Part shown: in pieces, positions 9,087-37,575 of the stretch
How the letters are laid out: every line of letters starts with the position of its first letter
Numbering within the stretch: the stretch's first letter is position 1
NCBI GenBank assembly: GCA_016199935.1
Contig: JACQFS010000077.1
Span: 1-37,576 of the forward strand
From: Verrucomicrobiota bacterium
GTDB lineage: Bacteria; Verrucomicrobiota; Verrucomicrobiia; Limisphaerales; JACQFS01
Reading direction: 5' to 3'
DNA: 37,576 nucleotides
Notes under the pieces: generated by a model
The model's database searches: none
What the model was told of the DNA's origin: nothing
The model's input: only the letters and a program-made list of their open reading frames with translations
Position numbers and translations under genes: made by a program

Positions 9087-12000
9087 ATGTTCGCCGCCAT
9101 CGCGCAGACTCCCGCCGCGCAGTCCCTGCTGCGGCGCGTAGAGTCGGGCGGCGCATTGTCTTGTGACGGCGTGAGCGCCGCGGCGCAGCCGTTTTTGGCC
9201 GCGCTGCTGCGTTGGAAATTTCCAATGTGCCCCATCGTCCTCGTCTGCGACGGCGTGAAAACGCAGGAGCGCGTGCAGCAGGACGTGACCACGTGGATGC
9301 AAGTTGGGGCGAAGGACAGCGCTCCCTCTCAACCCTCGCCTTTCAACTCTCAACCGCGCTTCTACCCCTCGTGGGAAGTCCTCCCGCACGAGTCAAAGCT
9401 CCCGCACGCGGATGTCATCAGCGAACGGTTGGAGACACTCATCGCGCTCTCGGCCGACCACGCATCCCGCATCACGCATCGCGCCCCGCTCATCGTCACC
9501 TGCGTCGCCGCGTTGCTGCAAAAAACTTTCCCGCCCGCCGAGATCGCCGCGCGCACGCGCCCGCTCAAGCGCGGCGCGAGCATCGTCCCGCTCGACCTCA
9601 TCGAGTGGCTGGAGGAGCAGGGCTACGACCCCGAATCCAAGGTCACGCAGAAGGGCGAGCTGTCCTTGCGCGGCGGCATCCTCGACCTGTGGCCGCCCAC
9701 GTGCCCGTGGCCGGTGCGGCTGGAGTTTTTCGGCGATGAGCTGGAGTCGCTCCGCTACTTCGATCCGCACACGCAGATTTCGCGGGAGGAAATCTCGACC
9801 GTCACGATCCCGCCGGCGGGTGAGTTGGGGATTTTGAAGCGCGCGCAAGGAGCTGCGGACCGCGGGCCGTCCCGGCCTGCAGCGGCCACGCAGCCACACG
9901 ACGTTGGTAATTTCCAAGCAGCCTCCGACACCGGACATGCTGCGAGCCGGGACGGCTCGCGGTCCGCCCCTCCGCTCGCCACCTTGCTCGATCATCTTCC
10001 GCGCGAGACCATTTTCCTCCTCTGCAATCCCGGCTCGCTCGACCTGCACGCGGCGAACTACGCGCAGCAGATTCCGCCCGGCGATCCGTTCTTCATCGCG
10101 TGGCCGGAATTCTGCGCGCGGCTGGAGTCCGGTGGTTTCACGTTCATCGAACTGAACGAAGCGGAGGAATTTGCCGCCGCCTCGGATCGGAGGGACGAGC
10201 TACGCGAGTCCCTGGCTGAATCCGACGCGGAAGAAGATGGGGACTTGCATAGCTCGTCCCTCCCGGGTGTAGGACTCCGCCTTTCGTTGAACTCGCTCGA
10301 CGCCTTCCGTCCGCTTGGCGACCGGCCGGCGGAGCCGCAGATTGCCGATGCTCAACGGCGCGAGTTTTTCGCCCAGCTTCACCGCTGGCTGCGGCAGGGC
10401 TGGGTGATCCACGTCTTCTGCAACAACGAGGGCGAGCGCCAGCGCTTCGGCGAAATCTGGGCGGAGTATGGCTTCGCAAATGTAGGTGCCGACGTGGGGA
10501 GGCTCACTTCAAACGCGGAACGCAGAACTCAGAACGCGGAAAAAAAATTAGAGCCTCCTCACGTCGGCACCTACCAACCCTTCACGCATCTTGGCGCACT
10601 CGCGCGCGGGTTTCTTTCGGACGAGGCGAAGCTCGTGGTCGTGACCGATGCGGAAATTTTCGGGCGCTACAAGGTGCAGCGACCGCGACGGCTCAAGTCG
10701 CCGCACGCGGCCTCCACGCGCTCGGCGCTCGACATTGATTTCACCGAACTGGCCGAGGGCGATTACGTCGTCCACGTCCAGCACGGCATCGGGCGCTATC
10801 GCGGGTTGAAATTTTTGCCCGCGAACAATCGCGACGCCGAATCCGGAATTCAGAATCCAGAATCCAGAATCGAACACCTCGCCATCGAGTTTGCCCCGAG
10901 CGAGCCGACGCAGCCCGGCCCGCTCCTTTACGTCCCCGTCACGGAGGCGCACCTCGTCGGTAAATATGTCGGCGCGGGCAAGGCGCGGCCGCCATTGAAC
11001 ACGCTCGGCGGCACGCGCTGGCTCAAAACGAAGGAGCAGACCGAGCGCGCCGTGCGCGATGTCGCGGCGGAGCTGCTGCGCGTGCAGGCGTTGCGCGAGA
11101 CGCAGCCGGGCTTCGCGTATCCGGACGACACGCCGTGGCAGCGCGAGTTCGAGGGATCGTTTCTTTACGAGGAGACGCCCGACCAGTGGAAGGCCATCCG
11201 CGAGACGAAGGCCGACCTCGAACGCGCGCGCCCGATGGACCGCCTCATCTGCGGCGACGTGGGTTTCGGCAAAACCGAGGTCGCCATCCGCGCCGCGTTC
11301 AAGGCTGTGATGAGCGGCAAACAGGTCGCCATCCTCGTGCCCACGACCGTCCTCGCGCAGCAGCACTACAACACCTTTCGCGAGCGCATGGCCGACTACC
11401 CGGTGCGCATCGAGATGCTCTCGCGCTACCGCACGCGCCGCGAGCAGTTGAAAATTATCGCCGATCTCGCGGCGGGCGCGGTGGACATCGTCATAGGCAC
11501 GCACCGGCTCGTGCAAAGCGACGTGAGTTTCAAGGAGCTGGGGCTGGTGGTGATAGACGAGGAGCAGCGCTTCGGCGTGCTGCACAAGGAGAAGTTCAAA
11601 CTCCTCCGCACGCACGTGGATGTGCTTACGCTCAGTGCCACGCCCATCCCGCGCACGCTGCACCTCGCGCTCACTGGCGCGCGAGACATGAGCACCATCG
11701 AGACGCCGCCGCAGGACCGGCTGCCAGTCGAGACGTTCGTGTCGCCCTACGACGAGCGGCTCATCCGCGACGCCATCCAGCGCGAACTGAATCGCGACGG
11801 CCAGGTTTTCTATCTGCACAACCGCGTGTTCGACATCGAGGCCGTCGCGACCAAGCTCAAGACGCTCGTCCCGCACGCGCGCCTCGTCGTCGGCCACGGG
11901 CAGATGGACGCGGATGAACTTGAGGACGTGATGACGAAGTTCGTCAACGGCGAGGCCGACGTGCTGCTCTCGACGACCATCATCGAGAGCGGCCTCGATA

Positions 12001-18493: not shown

Positions 18494-18497
18494 AGAA

Positions 18498-18564
18498 GTA
18501 TTCAGTATTCAGTTTTCAGTGTTCAGTCACGCGCGAACGGTCTGAACACTGAACACTGAACACT
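18498..18564. repeat. TTCAGT-word inverted repeat between fabF and deoA
   Basis: The left arm (18498-18527) is made of agtattcagt/ttttcagtgttcag words, and the right arm (18542-18564) of three gaacact units. Arms pair over about 20 bp (cagtgttcag with ctgaacactg exact). The element fills the fabF-deoA spacer and abuts the deoA start codon, so the deoA leader is essentially the repeat. Confidence 0.75.
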
Positions 18565-18577
18565 GCTCACTTCGGAA

Positions 18578-22034: not shown

Positions 22035-22098
22035 TAAGGAGTAAGCAGTAATCCGTAAGAGGACCCGGGGCGCATTACGGATTACTCCTTACTCCTTA
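22035..22098. repeat. TAAGGAGTAA-type inverted repeat, supplies a stop codon
   Basis: Arms 22035-22058 and 22075-22098 pair at 23 of 24 positions. The 64-bp element lies between fabD and the upstream propeller-like gene. The last codons and the TAA stop of that gene (22089 onward, minus strand) are read from the right arm. Single arms of the same word occur at 21017-21035 and near 5416-5434. Confidence 0.85.
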
Positions 22099-23045
22099 CG
22101 CTTCACATCCGGCCGCTTGCATTTGAACAGCGTCGGCCGCGTGTCACCCGGCGCGATCCAGCGGGCCTCGCCGTTGTTGTCGGTGCAGAGCCAGATGAAG
22201 TCGTCGTCCACCGCGAGACCTTCCATCGTGCTCGTCGGGTAGCGCGTGTTGTAGGCCACGGCCATTTTGCGCTCCATCTCGGAGAAGGAAAATTGCGCGA
22301 GCACCTTTTCCTTCTCCGCGTCCACCTGGAGCACCACGCGCGCCTCGCGCATGAGCACCCAGAGGTGGCCGCCGTGCCAGCAGAGGTCGGAGTAATGCGG
22401 ATCGCGCGCCTTGCTGTTGGCGGGATGCACGGCGAAGTCCCGCTCGACCTTGAGCGTCGCGAGGTCCACGACGATGAGGCGGCCAAGCTGGCGCTCGTTG
22501 GCAACGAAAAGTTTTCCGCCGCCGATGGCCACGCCTTCGAAGGACGCGTTCGGGTCGGAGTTGAAATACTTCGTCGTCCACGACCAATCAATCGGCAGCC
22601 GCTCCAGCTTCTCCGTCTTCGGATCGAAGCGCATGATCCAGCGGTTCGCCTCCTCGCACACGTAGAGGCGCCCCTGCGCGTCGCGCGCGAGGCCCTCGCA
22701 ATCCCAGCGGCCGACTTTCTCCTTCGCGAACGGCGCGAGTTGCGCGTCGGTGAAACAATTTGGCAGCCGCTCGAGGTCCGCCGCGTTGGTGCCGGCGAGA
22801 AAACGGATGCGCCAGATGCCGGGCGCGTGGTCGTTGATCGTGAGCAGGCCGCCGTCGGGCAGGAGCGTGAGGCCGGAGGCATCGAAGCGTTCGCCGTGCG
22901 GGAGGTTGAGTTGCCAGAACTGTTCGGCGACAAGGGCGAATTGCGGCCACGTGTCCGGCGCGAGGCCGCCCGCCGCCTGCGCGGCCCCGAGCAGCGCGCA
23001 ACCCACGCCGAGGATCAACCACAGGAACTGGAGGATTCGCTTCAC
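22089..23045 (-). CDS. Secreted propeller-like protein (SdiA-regulated/phytase-esterase-like)
   Basis: A 318-residue exported protein. A GTG start opens a signal peptide (KRILQFLWLILGVGCALLGA, cleavage near AQA at residue 24). The mature part has repeating blades: FDASGLTLLPDGGLLTINDH, CEGLARDAQGRLYVCEEANRWIMRF, FEGVAIGGGKLFVANERQLGRLIVVDL, DLCWHGGHLWVLMREARVVLQVD and MEGLAVDDDFIWLCTDNNGEARW. The alternating EGLA...G.LYV..E pattern is that of SdiA-regulated or esterase-like phytase-related beta-propellers. An extracytoplasmic sugar- or phosphate-ester role is possible but not shown. Its C-terminal residues (DVKRKE) and stop codon are read from an inverted repeat, so the original 3' end may have been replaced. 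Confidence 0.7.
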   Translation of the reverse strand: MKRILQFLWLILGVGCALLGAAQAAGGLAPDTWPQFALVAEQFWQLNLPHGERFDASGLTLLPDGGLLTINDHAPGIWRIRFLAGTNAADLERLPNCFTDAQLAPFAKEKVGRWDCEGLARDAQGRLYVCEEANRWIMRFDPKTEKLERLPIDWSWTTKYFNSDPNASFEGVAIGGGKLFVANERQLGRLIVVDLATLKVERDFAVHPANSKARDPHYSDLCWHGGHLWVLMREARVVLQVDAEKEKVLAQFSFSEMERKMAVAYNTRYPTSTMEGLAVDDDFIWLCTDNNGEARWIAPGDTRPTLFKCKRPDVKRKE

Positions 23046-26070: not shown

Positions 26071-26151
26071 GATGACGAATGACGAATGACGAATGACGAA
26101 CGGGCCACGACGGGCCGGATCAGCCATTCGTCATTCGTCATTCGCAATTCG
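26071..26151. repeat. GACGAAT-word inverted repeat between lpxL and waaF
   Basis: The left arm (26071-26100) is four tandem gaatgac units and the right arm (about 26125-26151) their reverse complement (cattcgtcattcgtcattcg). The element fills the whole 97-bp spacer, so both the lpxL mRNA end and the waaF leader run through it. The waaF start codon lies 7 bp from it. Confidence 0.85.
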
Positions 26152-28264: not shown

Positions 28265-28322
28265 CGGCGCGGAGTCTGCCAACGCCCCGCGCGCGGGGCA
28301 AGGCGCGGGACGAGGAAATTGA

Positions 28323-28471
28323 AACCACGGATGCGCACGGATGCACACGGATGGGAGCAGCAGGAGCGGATTTTTTCTTATCCGCCATTCCGGCATGGCT
28401 CGGGCGCGAGCACGGAGCCACTGCGCATCGGATGGTTCTTCATCCGTGTCCATCGGTGTCCATCCATGGTT
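28323..28471. repeat. CACGGAT-word inverted repeat, copy 1
   Basis: Left arm 28323-28353 (three spaced cacggatg words) and right arm 28441-28471 (catccgtgtccatcggtgtcc...) pair at most positions. The 87-bp centre contains a smaller dyad, gcggat/atccgc around 28367-28384. The element occupies the divergent spacer between lpxK and the deoxyhypusine-synthase-like gene, where promoters for both are expected. Two related copies lie at 35998-36095 and 37480-37575. Confidence 0.8.
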
Positions 28472-28546
28472 AAAAATTCCGGTGAACAAAAACAGATTGC
28501 CTTTGCCGTTCGCTCCGCAAGACTCCGCCCCACTTTGTCACGCATC

Positions 28547-35996: not shown

Positions 35997-35997
35997 T

Positions 35998-36095
35998 TAG
36001 CCACGGATGAAACACGGATTGAACACGGATCAAAATCGGGAGCACCGGATGAGTATTCTCCATCCGTGTTTCTTCCGTGTTCAATCCGTGGCTAA
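35998..36095. repeat. CACGGAT-word inverted repeat, copy 2
   Basis: Left arm 35998-36030 (gccacggatgaaacacgg...) and right arm 36062-36095 pair nearly throughout, the mismatches being where the words gaaacacgg and attgaacacgg are swapped. It lies between the UbiC-like and halogenase-like genes and ends 11 bp before the halogenase GTG. A spurious GTG start at 36077 lies inside it. Confidence 0.9.
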
Positions 36096-37483: not shown

Positions 37484-37575
37484 GCCACGGATGAAACACG
37501 GATTGAACACAGATAAAGACGGCGCGCGAGTTCTCGGCATTTCCGTGTTTCATCTGTGTTTCATCCGTGGCTAAA
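37480..37575. repeat. CACGGAT-word inverted repeat, copy 3
   Basis: Left arm 37480-37513 (taggccacggatgaaacacgg...) and right arm about 37543-37575 (...catctgtgtttcatccgtgg) pair across most positions. The TAG stop of the halogenase-like gene is the first codon-sized word of the element. It runs to the window edge. Confidence 0.88.

Follow-up and report, generated by a model that had tools for sequence, protein, structure and literature searches.

Palindromes built of short repeated words in a Verrucomicrobiota genome: probable gene-less relatives of intervening-sequence (S23/PF05635) elements

Introduction

The stretch of DNA considered here (37,576 nt from the draft genome of a Verrucomicrobiota bacterium; "the window") contains several palindromes that have no sequence in common but seem to be built in the same way: each arm is a short word repeated in tandem, and the second arm is the reverse complement of the first. 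Are such unlike sequences one kind of element, and if they are, is there a gene to which they belong? A REP-associated Y1 transposase was the candidate named in the initial annotation. The evidence assembled below points to a different gene family, PF05635, also designated 23S-rRNA intervening-sequence protein (IVP), S23, or TIGR02436 "four helix bundle protein." The word palindromes are quite probably short gene-less (MITE-like) members of a group of stem-loop elements, here called IVS/S23, whose long form carries a PF05635 gene. This type of element has until now been known mainly as the "intervening sequence" (IVS) of rRNA genes. To our knowledge, no function has so far been assigned to the S23 or four-helix-bundle family, and where rRNA intervening sequences come from, and how they move, has been an open question since 1990.

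Word palindromes of the window

The palindromes and their parts are as follows (window coordinates):

18495..18573, no strand: TTCAGT-word palindrome, gene-less, with fabF on one side and the next gene on the other
18495..18526, + strand: 5' arm of the TTCAGT palindrome, about four copies of AGTATTC / AGTGTTC
18542..18573, - strand: 3' arm of the TTCAGT palindrome, the word as its reverse complement
22035..22098, no strand: AAGGAGT-word palindrome (TAAGGAGTAAGCAGTAATCCGTAA), words also readable as AGTAAGG / TAAGGAG
about 26071..26151, no strand: GACGAAT-word palindrome (AATGACG)
28314..28480, no strand: CACGGAT-word palindrome, 10-nt words, loop of 87 nt
35997..36095, no strand: CACGGAT-word palindrome, 11-nt words
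37484..37571, no strand: CACGGAT-word palindrome, 11-nt words

All the palindromes named in the initial annotation are thus present, at the positions it gave or a few bases off. Their arms are tandem 7-nt words, lengthened to 10-11 nt in the CACGGAT copies. The AAGGAGT palindrome overlaps the stop-codon end of an ORF (22089-23045). As RNA, five of the six are predicted to fold at -35 to -54 kcal/mol (z -6.2 to -10.3), with no shuffled version equally stable; terminal inverted repeats with a stable stem, a defining feature of IVS/S23 elements, are therefore found in the window palindromes.

Census of inverted repeats

A census of inverted repeats with a score of at least 14 was carried out on 1.49 Mb, or 30%, of the source genome (G000, a draft). 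There are 346 of these, 77 with word-built arms, compared to 33 and none in DNA resampled on a dinucleotide basis. At least two of the 77 calls are GAG/GAC-type repeats inside coding sequence, which leaves about 75 real elements. The 77 include some 15 word families. Words are mostly 7 nt long (period 7 in 39 of 77), the median length of the elements is 89 bp, and loops vary from copy to copy. The supposition that the unlike words represent one kind of element is supported, and the build described for them, with repeated-word arms and a reverse-complement second arm, proves even more regular than was recognized: the words have a fixed polarity, with the 5' arm of 98 out of 101 close pairs carrying the word in one and the same orientation. 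A text search of the literature for the words themselves gave no match.

Separate from the word class, the same 1.49 Mb contains 117 hairpin-armed inverted repeats (true REP-type doublets), and there are four Y1_Tnp genes in the genome. GTAG-tagged REPs are also known in PVC bacteria (PMC3733652). The word palindromes might on these grounds be REP/REPIN elements that owe their spread to Y1 (IS200-like) transposases of relaxed specificity. A single word arm, however, is not itself a hairpin, and each Y1 gene of this genome is near REP-type hairpins of its own family or near none. Inverted repeats bracket the gene at 17 of another 23 Y1 loci (Prosthecobacter, Chthoniobacter, and a related genome), but none of these has word arms. 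With no word-bracketed locus among 27, Y1/RAYT was rejected as owner of the words; the transposase of the initial annotation is unsupported as their generator, and a REP/RAYT origin seems very improbable. The search it called for, for a RAYT/IS200-like gene flanked by such words, found none among these 27 loci; the words flank PF05635 genes instead.

PF05635 genes between word arms

Arm pairs of a single word at gene-size distance are few in the 1.49 Mb, apart from a TTCAGT pair enclosing a 167-aa gene; the insertion separates a PSD1-type gene from a DUF1501-type gene (both named by eye). The 167-aa protein matches TIGR02436 (four helix bundle protein) with 96 bits and, more weakly, the retroelement protein Avd (E 2e-10); among solved structures, XCC0516 (2GSC) is closest to it in sequence. 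A reverse transcriptase was considered as a partner, as in a DGR/Avd-like retroelement, and rejected: there is no RVT_1 match in the draft genomes G000, G002, and G037.

The whole genome has seven matches to PF05635, one of them under the curated cut-off. All seven genes are enclosed by two inverted word arms, with a different word each time: TTTTCAGG, TTCAGT, GGGAGAAAGG, GGTAAGCGG, CGAAATC, GACGAAT, and CACGGAC, this last pair being imperfect. The gene-bearing elements are 462-563 bp in length. For six of the seven genes, the word recurs in dispersed palindromes of the same genome (mean 3.3 per gene), compared to 15 of 45 for words of foreign PF05635 genes (mean 0.36).

Two of the seven words, TTCAGT and GACGAAT, are shared with window palindromes. 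The TTCAGT palindrome at 18495..18573 has a cognate PF05635 element on another contig of the genome (C197:36283-36845); its arms match those of locus L292 with a score of 27, the next best being 13. Cognates of the window GACGAAT palindrome are found in the same genome (C197:21859-22402), in Prosthecobacter (L371), and in a member of the Phycisphaerales (L361). The AAGGAGT and CACGGAT palindromes have no cognate among the PF05635 genes found in this genome. A 220-aa relative, seen in loci L297 and L319, may be the partner of longer words (9-10 nt).

Bracketing by word arms is general. A wider set of 61 PF05635 loci was drawn from 38 genomes of the order, with Prosthecobacter and Chthoniobacter added, and 52 of the loci have word arms. 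Among random windows of the same size in the source genome, 50 of 3000 are bracketed (Fisher p 4e-74 vs. PF05635 loci); for FabF-locus windows of relatives the number is 2 of 446, and the comparison with the 23 Y1 loci gives a Fisher p of 1e-13. Full-length members, like IVSs, thus have an S23/IVP ORF between their arms (7/7; 52/61), while the window copies are gene-less. Beyond this set, 14 of 18 PF05635 loci from Planctomycetota, one Bacteroidaceae MAG, and further Verrucomicrobiota are word-armed, as are 10 of 12 plasmid loci (11 at a looser threshold). The plasmids are from Nostoc, Calothrix, Pseudanabaena, Geminocystis, Aulosira, Trichormus, Gemmatirosa, Riemerella, and Azospirillum, representing Cyanobacteriota, Gemmatimonadota, Bacteroidota, and Alphaproteobacteria. 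The Azospirillum element (L395) lies within a 23S rRNA gene, making it a classical IVS whose arms are built of words. The classical 23S rRNA IVS is most likely an element of this kind that has an rRNA gene as its site. None of the open-licence papers searched ties standalone PF05635 genes to word-built inverted repeats, although an earlier description may exist elsewhere.

Co-variation of words and proteins

Similarity of arm words follows similarity of PF05635 proteins (Mantel r 0.377, p 2e-4, 52 loci). The correlation holds for 77 loci when the comparison is restricted to pairs that come from different genomes and whose flanking genes are unrelated (r 0.315, p 2e-4). A word is common to 58% of the closest protein pairs, vs. 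0.7% of the most distant. The GACGAAT genes of this genome (L296), Prosthecobacter (L371, in G039), and the Phycisphaerales (L361, in G051) are mutual best matches among about 74, and come from two phyla.

These relationships bear on another possible history, in which the word palindromes have origins of their own and later receive PF05635 genes in their loops, much as rRNA helices receive IVSs. The position of rRNA IVSs at hairpin tips (PMC4990558) would fit, as would the additional inner hairpin present in L296 and the few other genes also enclosed by word arms. Arbitrary hairpins would not, however, yield a word that tracks the PF05635 lineage across unrelated sites and phyla, nor a pair such as L298 and L329, from two distant genomes, in which homology is confined to the element: gene and arms are in common and nothing else. 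Insertion into pre-existing hairpins is accordingly unlikely. That the word tracks the protein where flanks are unrelated argues instead that the gene and its arms move together.

There is one counter-example. The orthologous PF05635 loci L315 (G005) and L341 (G003) are at the same genomic site, but have different words in both arms. Words can therefore also change in place, and in a concerted way.

Presence and absence in related genomes

An exact-pattern search of a collection of 84,980 species found GACGAAT palindromes at 26 loci, all of them in PVC bacteria except for one in a Bacteroidaceae MAG. Two draft genomes of a single genus, G038 and G041, share stretches that are 91-100% identical, and here positions can be compared directly. 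Variation in copy number or position, the lack of which would have counted against the initial annotation, is evident: of the 19 GACGAAT palindromes in G038, eight have empty orthologous sites in G041. The spacer sequence around the element differs at the empty sites as well, and neither a target-site duplication nor a clean junction is visible in the eight alignments. One G038 site has a REP-type palindrome in its place in G041, and one G041 junction, corresponding to two G038 sites, has a palindrome of a different word, TGTGAGAAGTGAG. Copies common to both genomes also differ: at one site the number of words is 2+5 vs. 3+11, and in another copy the loop is inverted. Heptameric stem repeats in variable number, another feature of IVS/S23 elements, are thus present. 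A PF05635 gene of the GACGAAT word was found in neither of these two MAGs, which have the freshest copies, but only in their relative G039.

At the 18495 site of the window, no relative within the order that has conserved flanks has a TTCAGT element, and one such relative (L084) has a CACAGAT-word palindrome instead. Insertion into coding sequence also occurs: a GACGAAT palindrome is found in frame in a PSD1-type gene, adding some 45-50 residues that are missing from a paralogue.

Given their high predicted stability, and their location adjoining stop and start codons, the palindromes could be conserved regulatory hairpins (terminators or mRNA stabilizers) under host selection. With an empty site or another palindrome in relatives, and loops that differ between copies, this is hardly credible. 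In a purely local origin, each palindrome would be made in place by slippage and inverted duplication, with no mobile element involved. Template slippage plus inverted duplication was one common generating process suggested in the initial annotation, and a part of that suggestion stands. The change from 2+5 to 3+11 words is a slippage-like step, as expected where word number changes in the manner of tandem repeats; arms differ in detail between copies; and the orthologous pair with different words could be read in the same way. Local events alone do not explain the same words at many sites of one genome and in other phyla, a polarity fixed at 98:3, or near-identical copies at unrelated sites. 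As sole cause, local origin is therefore disfavored, to the point of being highly improbable, and slippage remains as a modifier. Gene-bearing copies also recur at separate sites: two in one Pirellulales genome (L353 and L362) have 89% identity over 466 nt, and their flanks are unrelated.

At four G038 loci (L221, L224, L226, and L230), a GACGAAT palindrome keeps one neighbor gene in comparison to G041, with gene order disrupted on the opposite flank. Such palindromes might conceivably mark rearrangement hot spots.

Comparison with known systems

The rRNA IVSs with an S23 ORF (Leptospira, Coxiella, Brucella) resemble the elements described here in having terminal inverted repeats, a long stem, and a PF05635/S23 ORF in the loop. 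Gene-less IVS forms exist in Salmonella. The Coxiella IVS has, as here, heptameric repeats in variable number: these are GACAGAT heptamers whose number differs among strains, and the IVS is cut by RNase III (PMC4990558). Unlike known rRNA IVSs, the elements here are between protein genes, are mostly gene-less (tens to hundreds per genome), belong to many word families per genome, and are found in PVC bacteria, Bacteroidota, Cyanobacteriota, and others. As the window copies are between protein genes rather than in an rRNA gene helix, and one word-armed member (L395) is in a 23S rRNA gene, they are best regarded as kin of rRNA IVSs, but not as rRNA IVSs themselves.

REPs and REPINs with their RAYTs are likewise short palindromes scattered through the genome, and are related to a gene that has these repeats on its flanks, but the arms here are tandem words and not hairpins, the gene is PF05635 and not Y1, and Y1 loci have other repeats. 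MITEs are also gene-less inverted-repeat elements related to gene-bearing ones; the elements here differ in showing no target-site duplication in the eight empty-site alignments. No DDE transposase with the same ends was found among the Y1, PF05635, and gene-size arm pairs examined in 1.49 Mb.

The STRR sequences of heterocystous cyanobacteria are, like the arms here, tandem heptamers dispersed between genes; no description of them as inverted pairs or with a gene was found. The word-armed PF05635 loci on cyanobacterial plasmids suggest a link between the two. A further parallel is the P6b loop of the Nostoc and Calothrix trnL intron, which has a heptanucleotide stem of two classes, TDNGATT and NNTGAGT (PMC4476775). 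The hairpin stem consists of 7-nt words in variable number, as here, and one of the word classes has repeatedly taken the place of the other. It is known only as a hypervariable intron loop, and no connection to S23 or IVSs was found.

A possible mechanism

The long members can be described as a single small PF05635 gene between two inverted arms of 7-8-nt words. Each protein lineage is most likely paired with its own word, so that one genome comes to have many unrelated-looking palindromes of identical design. The protein may recognize its word, either as DNA or as an RNA/ssDNA hairpin, and both gene-bearing and gene-less copies could then spread through word recognition plus host enzymes. 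Host enzymes would have to do the chemistry, since we know of no catalytic site or nuclease activity in PF05635 and RVT_1 is missing from the three genomes searched. Word number probably changes by slippage, which would keep it changing. By analogy to rRNA IVSs (PMC4990558), cleavage by RNase III is probable once the hairpin is transcribed.

From these sequence relationships, we tentatively suggest, with somewhat less than even confidence, that PF05635 four-helix-bundle proteins could be word-reading mobility factors, each binding its own 7-8-nt word array and spreading gene-bearing and gene-less stem-loops through bacterial genomes and rRNA genes, with neither a transposase nor a reverse transcriptase of its own. 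Such stem-loops would represent a new mobile-element class, in which DNA or RNA word and protein sequence correspond in a readable manner. If these readings hold, a very common "hypothetical" gene would become the marker of a large selfish stem-loop family, and hundreds of unexplained palindromes per genome would gain an owner; heptamer repeats in cyanobacteria and in trnL introns might also belong here. Because word and protein correspond, recognition of the one by the other can be put to a direct test.

Other repeats and enclosed genes

Three segments enclosed by word arms have something other than a PF05635 gene inside. One contains an ADP-ribosylglycohydrolase gene, another a 152-aa ORF, and the third a run of other palindromes. 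The ADP-ribosylglycohydrolase-like gene (L007, 7134-8115, contig C260 of G000) is inside CACGGAT arms, between valS and another gene, and is possibly cargo or another owner of the CACGGAT words. The 152-aa ORF (L053, 583-1327, contig C200 of G000), with no family assigned, is inside ACGCAAAG arms.

Repeats of other kinds are also present. A Y1 transposase gene (L002, 1350-1960, contig C171 of G000) has CTCATTAACACCCCGCTTTAGCGGGGTG hairpins on both sides, with similar hairpins dispersed in the genome; this is an ordinary RAYT-REP pair. A large family, CGGACCGCGAGCCGTCCCGGCTCGCAGCGG, occurs as REPIN-like inverted pairs with a nearly constant spacer of 51 nt (window 9849-9973, L015, L052, L018, and others). 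GTAG-type palindromes, GGTAGCAGCCGACGTGAGGAGGCTC, are found at 10482-10574 in the window and at similar loci; their loops sometimes contain word arrays of their own (CGGAACG, CGAAACC), so the elements nest.
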